Below, in pieces: positions 8,024-17,410 of a stretch of DNA of 64,000 nucleotides. The position numbers and the translations under genes are program-made. Every line of letters begins with the position of its first letter. Within the stretch, counting starts at the first letter, position 1. Source of the stretch: Algiphilus aromaticivorans DG1253 (GTDB lineage: Bacteria > Pseudomonadota > Gammaproteobacteria > Nevskiales > Nevskiaceae). The stretch lies in assembly GCF_000733765.1 (NCBI RefSeq), contig NZ_JPOG01000001.1:806001-870000 (forward strand). Direction: 5' to 3'. The notes beneath the pieces are model-generated. The model had not been told where the DNA came from and did no database searches. It saw nothing but the letters and a program-made list of their open reading frames with translations.

Positions 8024-8248
8024 ATGAGTGAGCTGCATCGTGTGACGATTGATCCCGACATGTGTGGCGGCCGCCCATGCATCCGCGGGCTGCGGATTCG
8101 TGTCAGAGACGTTCTCGAGCTACTCGCTGCGGGTGCTTCAAGGGAAGAGATTCTCGAGGACTATCCCTATCTTGAGGCGGCGGACATCACGGCGGCGCTG
8201 GAATACGCGGCGCGGCAGAGTGATCACTCGGTGTTGTCGGTGGCTTGA
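8024..8248 (+). CDS. Orphan DUF433 antitoxin-like protein
   Basis: This 74-residue protein matches DUF433. Its DPDMCGGRPCIRGLRIRVRDVLELLAAGAS segment and the downstream LEDYPYLEAADITAALEYAA helix are typical of these winged-helix antitoxins. DUF433 genes are normally followed by a DUF5615 PIN-like toxin, but here only a three-codon ATG-CGG-TGC-TAA follows and then the hairpin repeats begin. The toxin is thus absent, and the protein may be an immunity-type orphan or a remnant. A 12-codon open frame just upstream (7989-8027) is too short to call. Confidence 0.8.
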   Translation: MSELHRVTIDPDMCGGRPCIRGLRIRVRDVLELLAAGASREEILEDYPYLEAADITAALEYAARQSDHSVLSVA

Positions 8249-8330
8249 TGCGGTGCTAAGCGTCGCTGGCGCACCGTGAGCGAGCCGTTTCTGCGGCGAC
8301 GAATCGTGGCAGGGCGCGGAGATCGCCGCG

Positions 8331-8428
8331 GTCACTAAACTCGATCTTCCGGATCTCGTTAAGTGACCCGGCCCGGGCCATCCGTGGCCCGGGCGCTAAC
8401 CCGGATTCGACTTGCCACTGGCAAGTCG
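8331..8428 (+). repeat. Three-hairpin repeat element, copy 1
   Basis: Hairpin 1 is 8331-8367 (arms GTCACT/AGTGAC with an inner GATC/GATC pair). Hairpin 2 is 8371-8394 (10-bp stem GCCCGGGCCA, loop TCCG). Hairpin 3 is 8408-8428 (10-bp stem CGACTTGCCA, short loop). The extended outer stem of hairpin 3 seen in copies 2 and 3 is only partly preserved here. A CGCCGC motif precedes hairpin 1, as in the other three copies. The copy fills the gap between the DUF433 gene and copy 2. Confidence 0.85.
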
Positions 8429-8495
8429 GTCGCTGGAGCTTCGAGGACGATTTGTCGTTTGGGCCGCTATGGGGCGTGTAGCGAGAACCGCCGCA

Positions 8496-8606
8496 GGCAC
8501 TAAACTCGGTCATCCGGACCTCGTTAAGTGCCCCTGCTCGGGCCATCCATGGCCCGAGCGCTGAGCCGCGCTGCGACTTGCCCCCGGCAAGTCGGTCGCG
8601 GCTCAG
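8496..8606 (+). repeat. Three-hairpin repeat element, copy 2 (overlaps the luxR stop)
   Basis: Hairpin 1 is 8496-8532; its arms are GGCACT/AGTGCC, a compensated T-A to G-C change relative to copy 1. Hairpin 2 is 8536-8559 (10-bp stem GCTCGGGCCA, loop TCCA). Hairpin 3 is 8561-8606: the outer 10-bp stem CTGAGCCGCG/CGCGGCTCAG surrounds the inner CGACTTGCC/GGCAAGTCG stem. The stop codon of the minus-strand LuxR gene (8603-8605) lies inside the outer stem. Confidence 0.87.
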
Positions 8607-9817
8607 CCCAATCGAATCACCGAGTTGAGGAGAAGGCGCACCAGCATGGTCTGGCGGGTGACGCCGGTCTTGCAGAAGATGGAGCGCAGGTGGGTGCGGG
8701 CGGTGTTGCGGCGCACGTTCATTTCCTCGGCGGCTTCGTCGAGGGTCAGGCCTTCGGCGAGCAGCAGGGCGAGGGTGGCTTCCATGCGGGTCAGGCCGAA
8801 GAGGCGGCGTACCAGCTCGTGCGAGGGCTGGGCGGCGTTGGCTTCGGGGTCGCGCAGGTAGACCACTGCGGCCGGGCGGTTGGCGCCTTCGGAGTACTCG
8901 CCGGCGGGCACGGTCTTGATGAGGATGCCCAGGTTGGCGCGGCCGGAGGGGCGCGTTACGGCCAGGGCGTCGACCATGGATGGGGCGTCGTCCTCGCATT
9001 CGCCCGAGCAGGCGCGGCGGATGATGCGATGCAGCTCGCGCTCTTCCTTGGTGCGGTCGAGACGCAGCGCGTCGCGCGTCATCCAGATGCCGTCCTTTTC
9101 ATCGAGGATGCGGCGCGCTTCCTCATTGGTTTCCATGATGTTGCCGTGCTCGTCGTAGCTGACGATGCCCAGCAGCATGCGGTTGATGGTGCCGGCGAAG
9201 AGCTGGCGCTCGGTCTCCAGGAAGTCCAGGCGCGAGTGCAGCTGGATGGCGCGCTTGAGGTGAGGCAGCACGAAGCCGACCAGCGCCTTGTCCTCGTCCG
9301 AGAAGGCTTCGGCCTCTTCGGTGCGCGTGACGCGCAGGCGGCATTCGATGCCGTCGGCGGTGTAGATGTCGGCGCCCAGCAGGTGCCGGATGCTCAATGG
9401 CTTGAGGTATTCCTGGTAGACAGTGCTGTTCAGCCACTCCTTGCCCACCATCTCTTCGGCCGTGACCACCTGGCCTTCCTTGAGGCGTACGAAGGGGTCG
9501 ATGGAGGAGAAGTGGGAGGTGTAGGAGTCGGTGGCCTGCTGCGTGGTCTCGCCGGTGTTGATCATGACGCCGGAGTTCTCCGCCGACGGCGGGCGCAGCA
9601 TCAGCGTGACGTGTTCGGCGCCGAGGCGCTGCTGGAGGATTTCCAGGGCTTCGCGCCAGGGCGGGGTGCTCAGTGGTCCGTCGTAGAGCGCCCCGACAAG
9701 CGCATCGAGCGCCTGAAAGGCGGGCGAGCCGGTGAGCTCGGCGAGCTCGTTCGTGGCGGACATATCAGGCCGCGTCGCGGCGCGAGCCTCGGCGAGGCTG
9801 GTCTGGGTCAGAGGCAT
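8603..9817 (-). CDS. LuxR-family transcriptional regulator (steroid-cluster regulator candidate)
   Basis: This 404-residue protein has a long N-terminal sensing region with a PAS-like middle (about residues 200-260, FAGTINRMLLGIVSYDEHGN) and a C-terminal LuxR helix-turn-helix (about 340-400, LTRMEATLALLLAEG and RRNTARTHLRSIFCKTGV). There is no receiver domain and no autoinducer-domain signature that I can recognise. Length and layout resemble TeiR, the LuxR-type activator of steroid degradation in Comamonas; that parallel is inference. The start at 9817 has AGGAGA eight bases upstream. The gene is divergent from the ketosteroid isomerase gene across a 257-bp gap that could hold its targets. 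Confidence 0.82.
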   Translation of the reverse strand: MPLTQTSLAEARAATRPDMSATNELAELTGSPAFQALDALVGALYDGPLSTPPWREALEILQQRLGAEHVTLMLRPPSAENSGVMINTGETTQQATDSYTSHFSSIDPFVRLKEGQVVTAEEMVGKEWLNSTVYQEYLKPLSIRHLLGADIYTADGIECRLRVTRTEEAEAFSDEDKALVGFVLPHLKRAIQLHSRLDFLETERQLFAGTINRMLLGIVSYDEHGNIMETNEEARRILDEKDGIWMTRDALRLDRTKEERELHRIIRRACSGECEDDAPSMVDALAVTRPSGRANLGILIKTVPAGEYSEGANRPAAVVYLRDPEANAAQPSHELVRRLFGLTRMEATLALLLAEGLTLDEAAEEMNVRRNTARTHLRSIFCKTGVTRQTMLVRLLLNSVIRLG

Positions 9818-10074
9818 GCTTGTTGTCTCCTGCGATCATTCCGGTCGGGTGGCGTCCCGGCGAAGGCCGGCGCCCCAATCTCATTTACTTTTGCGTCGTA
9901 TCCTGCGCGCCCGGTCAAGCGTTGTCGAGTCGTTGTTTCTAATGAATGGCGACGGGGGTCGTGGCTCGTCCTTGCGGGGGAGGCGTCGCAGCGCGGCTGC
10001 GGTGAGGATGCCGCCACTGTCCGCCGTTGCGGCGTGCAGCCTTTCCGAACCCACGCAGAGGACGGCAGCGACCC

Positions 10075-10458
10075 ATGCCCGAAGAGAGCCAGATGAAGCA
10101 GGCCATGCAGGCCTATATCGACCACTTCAATGCCGCCGACCCGGATGCCGTTGCGGCGCTCTACACCGAGGACGCCACGGTGGAGGATCCGGTGGGCAGC
10201 GAGCCCAAGCGCGGGCGCGAGGCGATTCTGGAGTTCTACCGCATGGCGGTGCAGACGGGGGCGAAGCTCTCCCTGGCCGCGCCCATCCGCGCCTCGCATG
10301 CTGATGCCGCGGCCATGGCCTTCGACGTCAATCTGCAGATGCCGGAAGGCCGCAGCCTGATCCGCGTCATCGACGTCATGCGTTTCGACGACGCTGGCCG
10401 CTTCCGCAGCATGGAGGCCTACTGGGGGCCTTCCGATGTGACGCCCGCCGCCGAATAG
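10075..10458 (+). CDS. ksi: Steroid Delta5-isomerase (ketosteroid isomerase)
   Basis: It isomerises Delta5-3-ketosteroids to Delta4-3-ketosteroids by proton transfer. The 127-residue product aligns along its length with the Comamonas testosteroni enzyme. Starting at 10075, the catalytic tyrosine falls at residue 14 (QAYIDHF) and the general-base aspartate at residue 38 (TVEDPVGSEP). The second acidic residue falls at about 100 (RVIDVMRF), the known active-site positions within one residue. This register supports the 10075 start over the longer frame at 10027 or the ATG at 10093. It is divergent from the luxR-type gene and convergent with kshA. Confidence 0.93.
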   Translation: MPEESQMKQAMQAYIDHFNAADPDAVAALYTEDATVEDPVGSEPKRGREAILEFYRMAVQTGAKLSLAAPIRASHADAAAMAFDVNLQMPEGRSLIRVIDVMRFDDAGRFRSMEAYWGPSDVTPAAE

Positions 10459-10501
10459 GCGGCGGGCACCGCGCCGGGCCGGCATAAGCGGTCCGGCGCC
10501 C

Positions 10502-11611
10502 TCAGGCCTCGAAGACGTGGGCGAGCGTCGGCTTTTCCTGCAGCCCCTGGTCCATTTCGACCACGCGCCGCTTCTGCTGCTCGGCGGGTACCTTGTCGAT
10601 GTCGGTGTAGAACTGCTCGTACCACTCGCGCAGCTGATAGATCGGGCCGTCGCCTTCGCAGAGCAGCGGATTGTCGATGCGCACCTTGTTGTGCCAGATC
10701 TCCACGTCCTCCGAGAAGGCCTTGCAGGTGAGGTCGACGTACTGCTTGATCATGTCGTTGCTCTGCTCTTCGCTCATGCCCGGAATCTTCTTGACCATGA
10801 CGCCGAAGCGCAGCTCGAAGCGGTTCTGGTCGATGGGCACGTGCGAGTTAAGCAGGATCGACTCGATGGGTACGCCCTGCGCCTCACCGAACATATGAGT
10901 GATGTGATACGCGGGCCCGAAGTAAGTTGCGATGGTGGTGAGGTGGCCGTTCGCGCCGCCCAGGCGCTCGTTCTTGCCGACCATCACCTGGGTGGCCTTG
11001 TAGCCTTCGAAGATGTTGGCGAAGTAGAGGACGTTCTCGGAGCCGTGCACCGGCGTGAAGTGCGCCATGTCGCTCTGGTTATCGATCAGCTCGCGGCAGT
11101 TGGTGGCGATGTCCCACTTGACGATATGCCAGTCCGACCATTCGTCGGATTGGGTCGCGTCGATGTGCGGAATATTCTGATCCGCCGGCGGCTCGTTGCC
11201 TTCGGGGTCGTTCCAGACGAAGAGCAGCTGGTTTTCCTCGTAGGTGGGCCATGACCGAATGCGCGCCTTCGGAGGGATGCGCTTGCAGTAGGGAATCTCG
11301 GTGCATTTCCCATCGCTGCCCCAGTGCCAGCCGTGGAAGCGGCAGACAACCGCGTCGCCCTTGACCTCGCCCAGGCCGAGATCGGCGCCCATGTGTGGGC
11401 ACCAGGCGTCCAGCACGTTCAGCTTGCCGGACTCGCCCTGGAAGACCACCAGACGCGTGCCGAAGATGTCCATCGAATGCGGCTTGCCGTCCTTGTAGTC
11501 GGCCGCCAGGCCCAGGCAGTGCCAGCCGCGGGCATAGCGCTCGGGCGGTGCGGCAGACTCGATCTGATGTGTCGGTGCCTTACCGGAAGCGGGGCGGATT
11601 GCAGTGACCAT
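10502..11611 (-). CDS. kshA: 3-ketosteroid 9alpha-hydroxylase, oxygenase component
   Basis: This Rieske non-heme iron oxygenase of 369 residues hydroxylates C9 of 1,4-androstadienedione-type steroids. Together with KstD it triggers opening of ring B. The Rieske ligands are Cys71, His73, Cys90 and His93 (CPHMGADLG and CRFHGWHWG). Mononuclear iron ligands are His183 and His188 in NQSDMAHFTPVHG, with Asp301 as the probable third. The ATG at 11611 is preceded by CTGGAG. Its reductase is probably the kshB gene at 27627-28667, outside this transcription unit. It is divergent from the hsaA-type gene with a 225-bp shared promoter region. Confidence 0.92.
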   Translation of the reverse strand: MVTAIRPASGKAPTHQIESAAPPERYARGWHCLGLAADYKDGKPHSMDIFGTRLVVFQGESGKLNVLDAWCPHMGADLGLGEVKGDAVVCRFHGWHWGSDGKCTEIPYCKRIPPKARIRSWPTYEENQLLFVWNDPEGNEPPADQNIPHIDATQSDEWSDWHIVKWDIATNCRELIDNQSDMAHFTPVHGSENVLYFANIFEGYKATQVMVGKNERLGGANGHLTTIATYFGPAYHITHMFGEAQGVPIESILLNSHVPIDQNRFELRFGVMVKKIPGMSEEQSNDMIKQYVDLTCKAFSEDVEIWHNKVRIDNPLLCEGDGPIYQLREWYEQFYTDIDKVPAEQQKRRVVEMDQGLQEKPTLAHVFEA

Positions 11612-11836
11612 GGGCTACTCCAGAGGTGCTTTTCTATCGAACAGTCTTGGAGGCAGCGGGCCCGGCTGCATCACCCATTTGCGTGAGTCCTTCAGGCGTC
11701 AGGAAGTTCGACAAAAAGGCCGGTAGTCATTTCGGACGATGCCCCGAGGAGGGCCGGGTGGTTGTAATGCATGCACCAATTTTTGCCGTCGGCGGCGTCG
11801 TCCGCCGGCCGATGACTACGACAGCAGGAGCAAGGC

Positions 11837-13030
11837 ATGCAGAACAAGGCCCAGAGCAACGTCACGCCGGCGAGTCCCGAAGTGTTGGTCCAGCGCGCGC
11901 GCGATCTCATCCCGAAGCTGGTGGAGCGTGCACCGGAGGCCCGCAAGAACCGCCGCGTCCCGGACGCCACGATCCGCGACCTGCAGGAAGCCGGTCTCTT
12001 TCGCGTGCTGCAGCCCAAGGCCTACGGCGGCTACGAGATGGATCCGCAGGTCTTCTACGACATCGCCATGACGCTGGCCGAGGGCTGCATGTCCACGGGC
12101 TGGATCTACGGGATCATGGGGGTCCACAACTGGCAGCTCGCACTGTTTGATCCGCAGGCCGCCGCGGATGTCTGGGGCGAGGACACCAGCACGCTGGTTG
12201 CTTCCACCTACATGCCGAAGGGGCAGGTGACGCCGGTCGAGGGCGGCTTCAAGTTCAGCGGGCGCTGGGGCTTCTCCAGCGGCATCGACCATTGCGACTG
12301 GGTGCTGCTCGGCGGGCTGATTTTCACCGACGGCCAGCCGCCGGAATACCGCACCTTCCTGGTGCCGCGCTCGGATTTCCGCGTCGAGGACACCTGGCAC
12401 ACCATGGGTCTGCAGGGCACCGGCAGCAACGATGTGGTCGTCGAGGACGCCTTCGTCCCCGAGTACCGGACGCACAAGGCTTCCGACGGCTTCAACGGCA
12501 CCAACCCCGGCGGCGACACCTTCACCTCGCCGCTCTACAAGATTCCCTTCGGGCAGATTTTCGTGCGCGCTGTCTCCTCGGCTGCCATCGGTGCGCTGGA
12601 AGGCGCGACCAAGTCCTTCCGCGACTGGGCGACCGACTGGACCGGCAACATGGGTTCGAAGACCGCCGAGCAGCCGCTCGCGCAGTTGGCCATTGCGGAT
12701 GCGCTGACGGCCACCGACGAGATGAAGCTGGTGCTGCACCGCAACTTCGAGGAAATCCTCGACAGCATCCACAACAATCAGCCGCTGCCCATCGAGCGCC
12801 GCGTGCACTTCCGCTATCAGGCTGCGCAGGTCGTCGAGCGTTGTGCTGATCGGGTCTCCCGGCTGATGGGGGCGGCCGGTGGTCGCGCCATCTTCACGGA
12901 CTTCCCCGTGCAGCAGCCCTTCCTCGACATCCACACCGCCCGCGCGCACTACGCCAACAACGCCTTCATGTTCGGCGGCAACTACGGCAGCGTGATGCTC
13001 GGCAAGGACAACACCGACTTCTTCCTGTAA
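11837..13030 (+). CDS. hsaA: HsaA-type flavin-dependent monooxygenase (3-HSA 4-hydroxylase family)
   Basis: This 397-residue protein has the acyl-CoA-dehydrogenase-like fold of two-component flavin monooxygenases. HsaA adds a hydroxyl at C4 of the phenolic 9,10-seco steroid 3-HSA using reduced FMN/FAD. Long stretches match HsaA from actinobacteria, including GCMSTGW, GVHNWQLALFD, VWGEDTST and LQGTGSND. A C-terminal DIHTARAHYANN segment holds the histidine expected in the active site. The start has AGGAG upstream. The flavin reductase HsaB is not found next to it and must be supplied from elsewhere. Confidence 0.88.
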   Translation: MQNKAQSNVTPASPEVLVQRARDLIPKLVERAPEARKNRRVPDATIRDLQEAGLFRVLQPKAYGGYEMDPQVFYDIAMTLAEGCMSTGWIYGIMGVHNWQLALFDPQAAADVWGEDTSTLVASTYMPKGQVTPVEGGFKFSGRWGFSSGIDHCDWVLLGGLIFTDGQPPEYRTFLVPRSDFRVEDTWHTMGLQGTGSNDVVVEDAFVPEYRTHKASDGFNGTNPGGDTFTSPLYKIPFGQIFVRAVSSAAIGALEGATKSFRDWATDWTGNMGSKTAEQPLAQLAIADALTATDEMKLVLHRNFEEILDSIHNNQPLPIERRVHFRYQAAQVVERCADRVSRLMGAAGGRAIFTDFPVQQPFLDIHTARAHYANNAFMFGGNYGSVMLGKDNTDFFL

Positions 13031-13051
13031 GCGCGGCCCGGGGGCACGGCA

Positions 13052-14779
13052 ATGAGCACGGAACATTGGGATGAGCGCTTCGATGTGGTCGTCGTCGGCT
13101 CCGGCGCCGGCGGCATGACCGCTGCGCTGCGCGCGCAGACGGAAGGCCTGTCGACTGTCCTGCTGGAGAAGAGCGACCGCTACGGCGGCACAAGCGCCGT
13201 CTCGGGAGGCGGTATCTGGATCCCCTGCAACGACCAGATCGCCGAGCTTGGTGAGTCGGACAGCTACGAGGAGGCGCTCACCTATCTGCGTTACCTCACC
13301 GGCGGTGAGGTGCCGGAATCCCGCATCGAGGCCTATCTGCGGAACGCGCCCGAGATGGTGCGCGCGCTGGCCGCGGACAGCGGCATCCACTACCGGGCCG
13401 TGCACAAGTATCCCGACTATTTCCCGGACAAGCCCGGCGGCAAGCCGGGCTTTCGCACCATGGAGCCGGCCGCCTTCGACGCCGCCCAGCTCGGCGATGC
13501 CTTCTGGCAGCAGCGCGAGCCCTTTGCCGGCACGCAGCTGATGGGCCGCGTGTCCATGGACCAGGTCGAGGCGCATACGCTGTTCACGCGCGGCAAGGGA
13601 TGGTTCCTGCTGACGCTGAAGATGATGGGTCGTTACTGGTCGGATCTTCGCTGGCGCCTCAAGACGCGCCGCGACCGCCGGCTGACGCTGGGACAGGCGA
13701 TGGTCGCCGCATTGCGCCACGGGCTCGATGCACGCGGCGTGCCGATCCGGCTCAATAACGCGCTCGTCGGGCTGATCGAGGAGAACGGTCGCGTCGTCGG
13801 CGTCGAGGTCGATTCGCCGGAGGGCCGCAAGCGCCTGCGCGCCGAGCGCGGCGTCGTGCTCGCCACGGGCGGCTTCGAGTCCAACCAACAGATGCGCGAA
13901 CAGTATCTGCCGCAGCCTACGCGCGCCGAATGGACGGCGGCCCCTTACGGCCTGAATGAGGGCGAGGGCATCCGCGCCGGGCAGGCGCTGGGTGCTGGCA
14001 CGGCATTCATGAACCTCACCTGGGGCACGCCCACCGCGCACATGCCGGATGAGGCGCCGCAGCCGGGGCTCTTTGTCGAGCGCGCGCTGCCGGGCTGCAT
14101 GCTGGTCAACGGCAACGGTCAACGTTTCTGTAACGAGGCCGGGCCGTATACCGAAGTCATCTATGCCATGTACCGCGACCACGAGAAATCCGGTTGCACG
14201 GTGCCGGCGTGGTTCGTCTTCGACGCCACCTTCCGCAAGAAGTATCCGGCCGGGCCAACGCTGCCGGGCAGCATCCAGCCGGATCGCAAGCTTCCGAAAA
14301 AGTGGTGGGACAAGGTCATCTACAAGGCGGATTCGCTGTCCGAGCTCGCCGCCAAGATCGGCATTGATGCTCAGGGCCTGGCGCAGTCGGTGGAGCGCAT
14401 GAACCGCTATTCCCGGCTGGGTGTGGACGCGGAATTCGGCAAGGGCGTCAACGTCTTCGATCGCTACTACAGCGATCCGACCGTCAAGCCGAATCCCTGC
14501 CTGGGGCCGCTGGAGAAGGGGCCTTTCTACGCGCTGCGTGTGGATGCTGGCGAGATCGGCACCAAGGGTGGCTTGACGACCGACGAGCGCGCGCGCGTGC
14601 TGCGCGAGGACGACGGTCAGCCCATCGCCGGTCTCTACGCCGTGGGCAATTGCTCGGCGGCGGTCATGGGTCGCACCTACGCCGGCCCTGGCTCGACGCT
14701 GGGCCCGGCCATGACCTTCGCCTATATCGCCGCGCGCGAGATGGCAGCCGAGGGCGGCGCGCAACGCAAGGCTGCCTGA
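13052..14779 (+). CDS. kstD: 3-ketosteroid Delta1-dehydrogenase
   Basis: This FAD-dependent enzyme introduces the C1-C2 double bond in ring A of 3-ketosteroids. The 575-residue protein begins with a dinucleotide-binding motif (VVVVGSGAGGMTAAL, about residues 12-26) and KYGGTSAVSGGG-like sequence near residue 50. It has a flavoprotein ATGGFESN strand and the substrate-site segment FYALRVDAGEIGTKGG (Tyr about 493), which corresponds to the Tyr487/Gly491 region of Rhodococcus KstD1. It follows the hsaA gene by 21 bases and is followed by an SDR gene, probably in one operon. A Delta4-dehydrogenase specificity is less likely but cannot be excluded. Confidence 0.9.
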   Translation: MSTEHWDERFDVVVVGSGAGGMTAALRAQTEGLSTVLLEKSDRYGGTSAVSGGGIWIPCNDQIAELGESDSYEEALTYLRYLTGGEVPESRIEAYLRNAPEMVRALAADSGIHYRAVHKYPDYFPDKPGGKPGFRTMEPAAFDAAQLGDAFWQQREPFAGTQLMGRVSMDQVEAHTLFTRGKGWFLLTLKMMGRYWSDLRWRLKTRRDRRLTLGQAMVAALRHGLDARGVPIRLNNALVGLIEENGRVVGVEVDSPEGRKRLRAERGVVLATGGFESNQQMREQYLPQPTRAEWTAAPYGLNEGEGIRAGQALGAGTAFMNLTWGTPTAHMPDEAPQPGLFVERALPGCMLVNGNGQRFCNEAGPYTEVIYAMYRDHEKSGCTVPAWFVFDATFRKKYPAGPTLPGSIQPDRKLPKKWWDKVIYKADSLSELAAKIGIDAQGLAQSVERMNRYSRLGVDAEFGKGVNVFDRYYSDPTVKPNPCLGPLEKGPFYALRVDAGEIGTKGGLTTDERARVLREDDGQPIAGLYAVGNCSAAVMGRTYAGPGSTLGPAMTFAYIAAREMAAEGGAQRKAA

Positions 14780-14849
14780 AGTCGGGCGGACCGGCCGGCG
14801 TGCGGCTTTGCCGCGCCGCCGGCACTAAAGAACAAGATCAGGAGACAGC

Positions 14850-15605
14850 ATGGGCAGACTGCAAGGAAAGGTCGCGCTGGTGACCGGCGCCGGCCAGGGC
14901 GTGGGGCAGGGCATCGCCTACGCACTGGCGGCCGAGGGTGCGGCTGTGGCCGTGACCGGGCGCACCGCATCGAAGCTCGACGACACCGTCGCCGGCATCC
15001 GGGAGCGCGGCGGCAAGGGCCTGGCGATTGCTTGCGACGTCAAGGATGCCGCCGGCATCAGCCAGTCCGTCGAGACCACCGTCCGCGAGCTGGGCGGGCT
15101 CAACATTCTGGTCAACAACGCCCAGGAAGTTCCGCTCGGCGCGCTGAACGACGTCACCGACGAGGCCTTCACGGCGGGCTGGGAATCCGGCCCGCTGGCG
15201 AGCTTCCGGTTGATGAAGGCGGCTTACCCGCACCTCAAGGGCGACGGCAATATCGTCAATCTGGCCTCGCCCGCGGCGCACCGCTGGGATATGGCCGGCT
15301 TCGGCTGCTACGGCGCCGTCAAGGAAGCCATCCGCCAGCTGACGCGCGCCGCGGCCTGCGAGTGGGGCGGCGAGGGCATCCGCACCAACGCCATCCTGCC
15401 GCTGGCGGCGTCGCCGGCCATGGCCTGGTGGATGCGCGAGTATCCGGAGCAGGGCGAGGCCTTCGTCGGCACCGTGCCCATGCAGCGCGTCGGTGATTGC
15501 GAGGCTGATATCGGTCGTTTCGTCGCAACCCTGTGTTCGGCTGATTGCGCCTATGTGAATGGTCAGAGCATCGCCTTGGATGGCGGGCAGGCTCGAATTG
15601 CATAG
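14850..15605 (+). CDS. SDR-family oxidoreductase
   Basis: This classical short-chain dehydrogenase of 251 residues has the NAD(P) motif TGAGQGVGQG (about residues 12-21), an NNAQ strand and a catalytic YGAVK at about 155. The C-terminal VNGQSIALDGGQ is typical. The ATG has AGGAGA upstream. It lies in the same direction as kstD and hsaA, so it probably acts on a hydroxyl or keto group of a steroid intermediate; the exact substrate cannot be read. The next 569 bases are non-coding and full of hairpins. Confidence 0.87.
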   Translation: MGRLQGKVALVTGAGQGVGQGIAYALAAEGAAVAVTGRTASKLDDTVAGIRERGGKGLAIACDVKDAAGISQSVETTVRELGGLNILVNNAQEVPLGALNDVTDEAFTAGWESGPLASFRLMKAAYPHLKGDGNIVNLASPAAHRWDMAGFGCYGAVKEAIRQLTRAAACEWGGEGIRTNAILPLAASPAMAWWMREYPEQGEAFVGTVPMQRVGDCEADIGRFVATLCSADCAYVNGQSIALDGGQARIA

Positions 15606-15745
15606 AGAGGCTCGAGGAGGATGATTACGAAACTTCTCCTCCTCGCGAGACGAGTCAGTACAGCGGACGCTATTGGCACCGTCTCGCCAGCGGTTCCGCG
15701 CTTCATAGCGAATGCGCTACCGGATGATGCCGCGCGGCCGGCGCG

Positions 15746-15773
15746 GGTTACTTTGGTTTCGGCCAAAGTAACC
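15746..15773. repeat. Perfect 11-bp palindrome (GGTTACTTTGG)
   Basis: GGTTACTTTGG and CCAAAGTAACC surround a 6-base loop. Similar GTTACTTTGG/CCAAAGTAAC palindromes are common between genes in Xanthomonas- and Pseudomonas-like bacteria. It lies 15 bp from repeat copy 4 and about 140 bp after the SDR gene. No T-tract follows. Confidence 0.65.
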
Positions 15774-15788
15774 AAAGCCATGGGCGAG

Positions 15789-15888
15789 TCCGCTGCGAAT
15801 GCCCGGTGGGCATTCGCAGCGGAGGAGCGCCCGGACAAGGATGTCCGGGCAGGGTCACTTAGCGAGGCAGGAGCCGAGCTTAGTGACC
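15789..15888 (-). repeat. Three-hairpin repeat element, copy 4 (inverted)
   Basis: Read on the minus strand, hairpin 1 is 15888-15853 (GGTCACTAAGC paired with GCTAAGTGACC except one mismatch). Hairpin 2 is 15850-15829 (9-bp stem GCCCGGACA, loop TCCT). Hairpin 3 is 15823-15789 (perfect 16-bp stem TCCGCTGCGAATGCCC, loop ACC). The order, spacing and loop motif match copies 1-3, while the arms of hairpins 2 and 3 are mostly different. The 5' flank again ends in CGCCGC. Confidence 0.83.
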
Positions 15889-15964
15889 GCGGCGGTTTGA
15901 GCGAAAAGGCGGCGCTACAGATGCCTTGCACTTACAGGCCATGCGTCGCGCAAGGATCGCCGCT

Positions 15965-16074
15965 GTCACTAGATTCGGTCTTCCAGACCTCATCAAGTGA
16001 CCCTGGCTGGGCCATCCATGGCCCAGCCGTGATGCGCGCTGCGACTTGCCACCGGCAAGTCGGTCGCGCATCAC
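15965..16074 (+). repeat. Three-hairpin repeat element, copy 3
   Basis: Hairpin 1 is 15965-16001 (GTCACT/AGTGAC plus an inner GGTCT/AGACC stem). Hairpin 2 is 16005-16028 (10-bp stem GGCTGGGCCA, loop TCCA). Hairpin 3 is 16029-16074: the outer stem GTGATGCGCG/CGCGCATCAC surrounds the CGACTTGCC/GGCAAGTCG stem. It lies head-to-head with copy 4, 76 bp away, and about 100 bp upstream of the old yellow enzyme gene. The whole 15606-16174 gap has no other gene. Confidence 0.87.
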
Positions 16075-16174
16075 CCCTCAAGGGCACGGATCGCTCTGGC
16101 TCGCCGCTTCGCGGCATCGCTGCTGAGTCGTTCCTGTTCGTTTCTGGTTGCAATCGTCCTCGAGGGTGTACGCC

Positions 16175-17410
16175 ATGACTGCTCCCGCTGAGATCGCCGA
16201 GGCCTACACGCCGCTGAGCATCGGCCCGCTGCAGCTGCGCAACCGCTTCATCAAGTCCGCTACCAACGAGGGCATGGCCAGGGGCGGTGTGCCCTCGCAG
16301 GCGCTGGTCAATCACCATCGCCGCATGGCGGCGGGCGGGGCGGCGATGACGACGGTGGCCTACTGCGCGGTGACGCCGGACGGGCGCACCTTCGAGGATC
16401 AGGTCTGCCTCGATGAGGCGACGCTGCCGCATCTGCCAGCACTCACCGAGGCCGTGCACGCTGAAGGCGGCGCGGCCTGCGCGCAGATCACGCACGGCGG
16501 CTGTTTCACCTTCCTGCCCGAGATGTCGACGCGTTATCCGCTGTCGGCCTCCGGCGGATTCAACCCGCCCGGCGTCATCAGCGGCCGCTTCTTCAAGACC
16601 GCCATGGACGAGGACGACATGGAGGCCGTGGCAGAGGCCTTCGTGATGGGAGCGAAACGCGCCCAGGCAGCCGGCTTCGACGCGGTCGAGATCCACATGG
16701 GGCATGGCTATCTGCTGTCGCAGTTCCTGTCGCCGCTCTACAACCGTCGCAAGGACGGCTGGGGCGGTGACGCGGCCGGCCGCGTGCGCTACCCGGCCGA
16801 GGTGTTGCGGCGCGTCGTGGCCGCTGTCGGCGATGAACTGGCAGTGACCTGCAAGATCAGTGTCGTCGAGGGCCACAAGCGCGGGCCCGCCATCGAGGAT
16901 GTCATCACTACGGTGCGCGCCCTGGAGGCTGCCGGTGCGCACATGGTGGTGCTCTCCGGCGGCATGAACGTTGAAGCGCCCTGGCAGATCTTCGGCAGCA
17001 ATATGCCGAAGGCCGCCGTCACGCAGATTCAGAACGGCGTCGTGCGCACGGCCACCAAGCTGATGCGGCTGGTGGAGCCGAAGATCACCTTCCGCGAGCT
17101 GTATCTGCGCGAGTACTCCAAGCGGATTCGCGAGGCCGTGCCGACGCTCAAGCTGGCCTATCTGGGCGGGGCGAAGAGCGTGGACGGCGTGGCGCAGATC
17201 ATGAATGACGGCTTCGACGCCGTGGTCATGGGCCGCGCGCTGATCCACGATCCGGCTCTGGTCAACAAGTTTGCCGGTGGCGAACTGCGCGTGTCGGGTT
17301 GTACGGCCTGCAATGAGTGCGTGGTGACGATGTACGGCCCCGGCGGCACGCACTGCGTGCTGACCGAAAGCGGCGACGCTGAGGCCAACGCCCGCCCCGC
17401 GGCCGGTTGA
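16175..17410 (+). CDS. Old yellow enzyme-family NADH:flavin oxidoreductase
   Basis: This 411-residue FMN TIM-barrel protein belongs to the OYE / 2,4-dienoyl-CoA reductase group. Visible motifs are LQLRNRFIKSATNEG near the N-terminus, QITHGG, and the substrate-site HMGHGYLLSQFLSPLYNRR. A cysteine cluster (GCTACNECVV with a later Cys) could hold an iron-sulfur centre, although the large NAD-binding C-terminal domain of dienoyl-CoA reductases is missing. The context suggests reduction of a conjugated double bond in a steroid. The start at 16175 gives MTAPAEIAEAYTPL; an in-frame extension to 16148 is unlikely. It begins a tightly packed four-gene operon. Confidence 0.88.
   Translation: MTAPAEIAEAYTPLSIGPLQLRNRFIKSATNEGMARGGVPSQALVNHHRRMAAGGAAMTTVAYCAVTPDGRTFEDQVCLDEATLPHLPALTEAVHAEGGAACAQITHGGCFTFLPEMSTRYPLSASGGFNPPGVISGRFFKTAMDEDDMEAVAEAFVMGAKRAQAAGFDAVEIHMGHGYLLSQFLSPLYNRRKDGWGGDAAGRVRYPAEVLRRVVAAVGDELAVTCKISVVEGHKRGPAIEDVITTVRALEAAGAHMVVLSGGMNVEAPWQIFGSNMPKAAVTQIQNGVVRTATKLMRLVEPKITFRELYLREYSKRIREAVPTLKLAYLGGAKSVDGVAQIMNDGFDAVVMGRALIHDPALVNKFAGGELRVSGCTACNECVVTMYGPGGTHCVLTESGDAEANARPAAG

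Follow-up and report, generated by a model that had tools for sequence, protein, structure and literature searches.

What kind of element repeats three different hairpins in the same order, and how did it come to sit four times in one stretch of bacterial DNA? The question arises from 64,000 nucleotides of Algiphilus aromaticivorans DG1253 (contig NZ_JPOG01000001.1, positions 806,001 to 870,000), which we call the window and within which we number positions. We believe that the copies belong to a new non-autonomous, guide-directed, site-specific mobile DNA element, and we put the probability of this reading at roughly 55%. The element recurs at the same sites in genes, the gene end at those sites is duplicated, and in one class of insertions the bases next to hairpin 1 are complementary to the site; from these features we infer that it moves.

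The original prediction, made from the letters alone, described four copies with three hairpins each. All four are there, and hairpins 1 and 2 are complete in every one. Copy A (8325-8430, plus strand) has a GCCGC foot, with hairpin 1 at 8331-8367, hairpin 2 at 8371-8394 and hairpin 3, whose outer stem has decayed, at 8408-8428. Copy B (8490-8606) lies on the same strand, so that the two units A and B point the same way; its hairpins are at 8496-8532, 8536-8559 and 8561-8606. Copy C (15784-15893) is on the minus strand, with hairpin 1 at 15854-15887, hairpin 2 at 15829-15850 and hairpin 3 at 15789-15823. Copy D (15959-16076, plus strand) has its hairpins at 15965-16001, 16005-16028 and 16029-16074. 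With R1, a covariance model of hairpins 1 and 2 built from 16 copies, A to D score 94.5, 94.9, 71.1 and 98.9 bits. Hairpin 1 follows a fixed plan of outer stem, an A, 3 bp, a TC/TC internal loop, a further stem and a loop with TCC, and hairpin 2 in the window copies has a stem of 9-10 bp and a TCCN loop. Hairpin 3 varies in length among copies. Its stems pair completely in copies B, C and D, as predicted, and B and D contain a small internal loop as well; in copy A the prediction holds for the inner part only.

A count of four is far too low. BLAST with copy A gave 51 matches at E<=10, several of them as head-to-head pairs, and R1 found 48 copies in this 3.8-Mb genome at E<=0.01 and 56 at E<=1. 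This covariance-model search, which had been proposed beforehand as a check, also found copies in 12 of 60 relatives, or 13 of 61 genomes and 9 of 21 genera when the own genome is included. R2, a broader covariance model of 75 copies, found the element in 18 of 85 genomes of the order and, with reduced sensitivity, in at least 10 of 369 Gammaproteobacteria genomes; the class-wide scan scored 13 candidates per genome, so the last figure is a lower bound. An exact pattern matched 29 stretches in named records, including Lysobacter, Rehaibacterium, Rudaea, Rhodanobacter and Chiayiivirga. Four of the 29 (three Novosphingobium, one Deltaproteobacteria) appear, on inspection by eye, to be fortuitous matches within coding sequence and were left out of the later copy set. 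The element is present in Lysobacterales, the order to which Rehaibacterium belongs; the placing of Lysobacter, Rudaea, Rhodanobacter and Chiayiivirga is our assumption, in part from record titles. Viral contigs gave no match to one exact pattern, and copy D had no blastn match among plasmids.

A few single copies have oddities of their own. One (L035, about 1600-1750) is interrupted by sequence that by eye resembles the end of an IS3-type transposase, and in G013 two inverted copies lie about 9.3 kb apart, beside ordinary open frames (L186). Of 30 copies in the own genome, 20 have positive local GC skew on the plus strand of the element, a possible replication-strand bias that is too weak to build on among copies that are not independent.

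Are the hairpins kept as structures? In 16 copies we counted 43 double changes, in which both sides of a pair differ, against 12.7 in shuffles; in 73 distinct rows there were 274 against 72.7, counts that are biased towards the structure because the rows were found and aligned with a model of it. None of 500 shuffles reached the observed value in either set, and shifting the pairing partners by 1-3 columns abolishes the signal. A weaker measure, the number of further pair types, was matched by 50 of 500 shuffles for the 16 copies and by 17 of 500 for the 73 rows. Across the 73 rows hairpin 1 has 161 cells changed on both sides and 6 on one side, and hairpin 2 has 113 and 12, with 11 of the 12 at the loop-closing pair; unpaired cells make up 9% of all cells. 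The claim that the pairing is under selection holds up.

That claim had left open whether selection acts on RNA or on single-stranded DNA, and here the choice can be narrowed. Nearly all pair changes run directly between Watson-Crick pairs, and G-U changes are few. Selection on RNA would probably leave more G-U pairs, so DNA hairpins are favored, and the hairpins probably act as DNA rather than RNA. When folded as single-stranded DNA, copies D (z=-9.6) and C (z=-9.5) were matched in stability by none of 200 shuffles; A and B were folded as RNA only, without shuffles. Some copies elsewhere carry additional hairpin-like insertions within hairpins 1 and 2 (L040:1620-1890, L019:1190-1340, L192).

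The sites at which copies sit recur. In RNA genes they are the tRNA D-arm (Gly, Thr, Pro, Arg), the tRNA-Pro anticodon arm and the rnpB 3' end. In protein genes they are mnmG near codon 16, the first codons of murG, purA, argC and yhhQ, and the last codons of other genes; we named protein genes from reading their translated ends, mnmG also by protein search, and rnpB by Rfam. The gene end that is split off is present twice, as an intact end (X_c) on the gene body at the side of the element and as a displaced end (X_n) beyond hairpin 3. At a second type of site the right end of the element provides a stop codon, as copy B does and as HIT and pstB elsewhere appear to do by reading. The stop codon from copy B is the TGA at 8603-8605 on the minus strand, within its right end, and by the open reading frame list and translation it closes the gene (8603-9817, minus strand) of a LuxR-like regulator of 404 amino acids whose GerE match (E=1.1e-4, 22.2 bits) is slightly below the Pfam cut-off of 23.5.

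Was the gene end, which we call X, carried in with the element or duplicated on the spot? At mnmG, G009 differs by the inserted unit from G020, which lacks an element at this site, and the two agree in the displaced start and in the gene body (0.93, 1.0, 0.95 and 0.95 in the first four 60-nt windows of the body). Both genomes share the native mnmG start, and the start that adjoins the element in G009 differs. This fits an X that was carried in, but an old insertion that was lost from G020 would look the same. The alternative is an insertion that duplicates its target through two nicks offset by about 50-60 bp, in the manner of target-primed reverse transcription, which would make X a very long target-site duplication and the guide a copy of the target. 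For this speak the X copies at rnpB in the own genome, which are alike over 47-48 bp including non-coding DNA, the 3' flank of rnpB in G001, in which no element was found, and about 53 identical bp at argC in L133 that extend past the start codon. However, among the codons that differ between the X copies of 10 protein-gene insertions, 29 are synonymous and 13 non-synonymous (two mnmG rows and argC were left out, and one of the 13, in L143, was read across the junction), which a dead duplicate should not show, and in several insertions the similarity of X halts at the start or stop codon. The evidence on the origin of X is mixed, and as an account of the whole we consider target duplication unlikely.

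One locus with an array next to tRNA-Gly has a further feature (L038:1897-3066, outside the window at G000:C1, about 2785250-2786420). A group II intron (RF02012, E=1.9e-20) seems to interrupt the tRNA-Gly beside the array, and an intact tRNA-Gly(CCC) lies further along, ahead of an open frame that by eye resembles an intron protein. By analogy, the intron seems to follow the same logic of bringing a replacement.

How would a site be chosen? In part of the insertions, the stretch that immediately precedes hairpin 1 on its 5' side is reverse-complementary to the insertion site. Examples are GCGCGGATCGAC in G011, TGGTCGGATAA in G037, ATGGTTTTTT in G071, ACGCCGGCACCG at mnmG in G009 and GGGGCGACG at purA. 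We tested 28 insertions, chosen by hand among the copies with a readable duplicate and left junction (the murG L150 row used a misassigned, array-internal junction and was counted unchanged). The longest complementarity to the own site was at least 6 nt in 16 insertions and at least 9 nt in 10. Among 660 control pairings with the targets of other insertions it was at least 6 nt in 92 and 7 or 8 nt in 16, and none reached 9 nt; in a permutation of 20 representatives, none of 5000 rounds reached the observed sum of complementarity. Protein genes carry this signal: 15 of their 19 rows have a match of 6-12 nt that ends 0-4 nt before hairpin 1, and in those 15 rows hairpin 1 begins 77-89 nt from the junction. 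None of the nine tRNA and rnpB rows has one. Four tRNA insertions that came later, and were tested once, gave matches of 8 nt (tRNA-Pro of the own genome, hairpin 1 at 85 nt), 10 nt (tRNA-Ser of G006, at 56 nt), 4 nt and 4 nt; G052 L199, which has only an array-internal junction, is not among the four. We therefore regard the guide as a trait of part of the family, with a spacing that is not invariably fixed.

An immobile structured RNA or a terminator cassette, both raised in the original prediction, would account for the strong conserved structure and for the several copies at 3' ends whose right end gives the stop codon. We find this very improbable. Rfam gave nothing above the gathering score on the elements (in the whole window, in nine loci and in window 8200-16300; two sub-threshold matches touch the L038 copies), which agrees with the earlier statement that no named family fits. 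The copies at 5' ends are inverted relative to the gene, and a terminator leaves these insertions, the arrays with duplicated gene ends and the complementarity to the insertion site unexplained. A literature search, which did not go to full-text level, found no description of this element.

The right end of the element may mark a second end structure. It reads TCRC|CC in many copies, where the bar marks the junction; the tRNA-Gly arrays and copy B deviate. Of 68 distinct copies, 20 show G-Y-TC...TC-R-C|CC at the foot of hairpin 3, and the Y and R bases of this pattern are paired in all 20 (10 C-G, 10 T-A, none mismatched), though some of these copies are close relatives. The resulting TC/TC loop is of the same kind as the one in hairpin 1. 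These features bear on a rival in which the guide and the three hairpins are transcribed, like a bridge RNA or omega RNA, and steer a nuclease or recombinase to abcde|CC. A 6-12 nt guide directly ahead of a conserved hairpin scaffold is what programmable RNA guides look like. However, G-U pairs are few, those 20 copies have the junction right at the foot of hairpin 3, as a DNA end would, and IS110, a DEDD transposase, is not associated with the element (5 of 13 bearing genomes against 21 of 48 others; TnpB and IscB were outside the search). An RNA-guided element is, we think, quite unlikely.

A guide-directed DNA element would work as follows. The full unit is about 160-200 bp of non-coding DNA, made up of X, a short guide and hairpins 1, 2 and 3, and it inserts ahead of CC at abcde|CC. 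The guide, where there is one, complements the target to the left and to the right of the cut, typically over GG plus about 5 nt or more, so that the target strand could fold onto the element. A single nuclease or transposase would recognize both ends by hairpins 1 and 3, whose TC/TC loop is common to the two in canonical copies; it would cut on the left where the guide pairs with the junction, and on the right at the hairpin-3 foot. Movement would be as single-stranded DNA, with one enzyme for both ends that is supplied in trans. X repeats the end of the gene entered, whether its start with the ribosome-binding region, its last codons, the 5' part of a tRNA or the rnpB 3' end. Because X repeats the gene end, the gene would stay intact, so conserved genes could be entered harmlessly, the same site could be entered again and arrays could arise.

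Several observations weigh against this reading. Twelve of the 28 insertions lack a match to the guide. Seven of these lie at tRNA D-arms and rnpB, with hairpin 1 at 57-70 nt from the junction, and the others are those at mnmG in G018, tRNA-Pro in G006, tRNA-Ser in G216, cobO in L139 and murG in L150 (the misassigned junction). The 6-nt match at cobO in L141 sits 24 nt from hairpin 1, and in the guide-matched tRNA-Ser insertion the junction and hairpin 1 are just 56 nt apart. When one unit was folded as DNA together with its flank (z=-3.4), hairpin 1 was retained, but in the minimum-energy structure the guide was unpaired with the left junction. The strict pattern at hairpin 3 leaves out 48 of the 68 copies. 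No insertion that is polymorphic within a species was seen. A model of hairpin 1 alone (R3), run on 16 genomes, found no autonomous form with cargo, among matches up to E=0.05. Of the R3 matches that had no R2 counterpart, six were inspected; two strong ones (G013, G021) end at a contig end just past hairpin 1 and cannot be judged, and of four weaker ones one is a further unit (G076) and three are without a canonical unit. Finally, no enzyme was found, in a search confined to the presence of Y1 transposases and IS110 in the genomes, which left aside TnpB, IscB, further HUH enzymes, reverse transcriptases and tyrosine recombinases.

The Y1 result also bears on the link to a REP-associated transposase that the original prediction had suggested, and we reject that link. 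The own genome has no Y1 transposase (PF01797), and across genomes there is no association (7 of 13 bearing genomes, own included, against 36 of 48 others). To the idea that these are REP or BIME repeats spread by such an enzyme we give almost no weight. The element is intergenic, palindromic and multi-copy and forms singlets and head-to-head pairs, as REP, REPIN and BIME repeats with RAYT do. In contrast to them, it has a larger plan of three different hairpins and inserts within gene ends that are present in duplicate, and its feet are GATCGCCG, TTGGCCGC or target-specific, with no GTAG or CGTC foot by eye.

Among known systems, insertion of IS200/IS605 elements is not known to make a target duplication, whereas here X, on whose origin the evidence is mixed, is repeated on both sides of the hairpins, a further point against our reading. 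PATEs are non-autonomous derivatives of IS200/IS605. At IS200/IS605 ends, as parts of PMC6006769 describe them, a guide just 5' of the hairpin foot pairs with the target that flanks the left end. Our element is alike in its guide, which sits on the 5' side of the left hairpin and can pair with the target next to it (in 15 of 19 protein-gene insertions and 2 of 4 later tRNA insertions, but in 0 of 9 tRNA and rnpB rows), in a right-end hairpin that adjoins the junction, and in directional insertion. It may also be alike in subterminal hairpins at both ends with a common irregularity, a pattern that 20 of 68 copies show and 48 do not fit. What sets it apart is that a copy of a gene end, 56-89 nt long, separates the junction from hairpin 1, that its guides measure 6-12 nt, that a third hairpin stands between the end hairpins, and that its targets are conserved gene ends. 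The transposase that defines IS200/IS605 was not detected in the own genome and is not associated with the element, so we do not file the element there.

The other systems that we compared share single features with it. IS110/IS1111 elements have a dinucleotide at both junctions and a bridge (seek) RNA whose guide, in an internal loop, is complementary to the target; ours has the dinucleotide and a target-complementary guide, but the guide is at a hairpin foot and there is no IS110 association. tRNA-targeted islands are integrative elements that bear a copy of the gene end they enter. Here too the element-side copy restores the gene end and repeated insertion gives arrays, but the unit is non-coding and under about 200 bp, has many unrelated targets and site complementarity, and holds no integrase gene. 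Rickettsia palindromic elements are likewise small, palindromic and inside genes; those are translated in frame into the protein, whereas here the gene end is replaced. The attC sites of integron cassettes have R boxes with a crossover at G|TTRRRY, and the junctions that we read in our element are |CC instead, a comparison made without running an attC model.

How did the four window copies get there? The right end of copy C is canonical, GGACTCGC|CC at 15783/15784 on the minus strand, and in copies B and D the foot of hairpin 3 is fully paired. Copies C and D form a head-to-head pair within a composite of about 450 bp (15672-16122), flanked by a short-chain dehydrogenase gene and an Oxidored_FMN gene (Pfam). 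Outside C and D the composite has extra palindromes, TTTGGTT..GGCCAAAG on the left and a CGCTTCGCG palindrome on the right, and these recur beside other D-type copies. The D-type copies that we read in the own genome have a fully paired hairpin-3 foot and share the near-constant foot GATCGCCG. In an all-vs-all BLAST of 15 D-type loci, 13 of the 14 others share sequence with the window locus (L048) outside unit D as well, two of them along 454 and 434 bp and the remainder in shorter pieces, and one matches within unit D alone. A larger composite may have carried D-type copies along as it spread. For A to D we found no duplicate with a readable left junction, and no guide is shown for these four. 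They may have spread with the larger composite and not by guided insertion.

We also put forward, tentatively and as a further step that we hold to be somewhat doubtful, that the element represents a new class of selfish DNA. Its members would be gene-less homing elements of less than about 200 bp, re-aimed by a complementary 6-12 nt guide in their own DNA, able to spread among conserved genes because each carries a functional replacement for the gene end it destroys, and mobilized by an enzyme that has escaped recognition. If this is true, it would point to a DNA-hairpin enzyme in Gammaproteobacteria that is yet to be identified, and to an insertion system that is programmable, spares the genes it enters and acts on a very small DNA substrate. 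Each guide-matched insertion would show both target and guide, so that the pairing rule could be read from genomes. For the bacteria that carry it, the element would be a route by which selfish DNA lives within essential genes.

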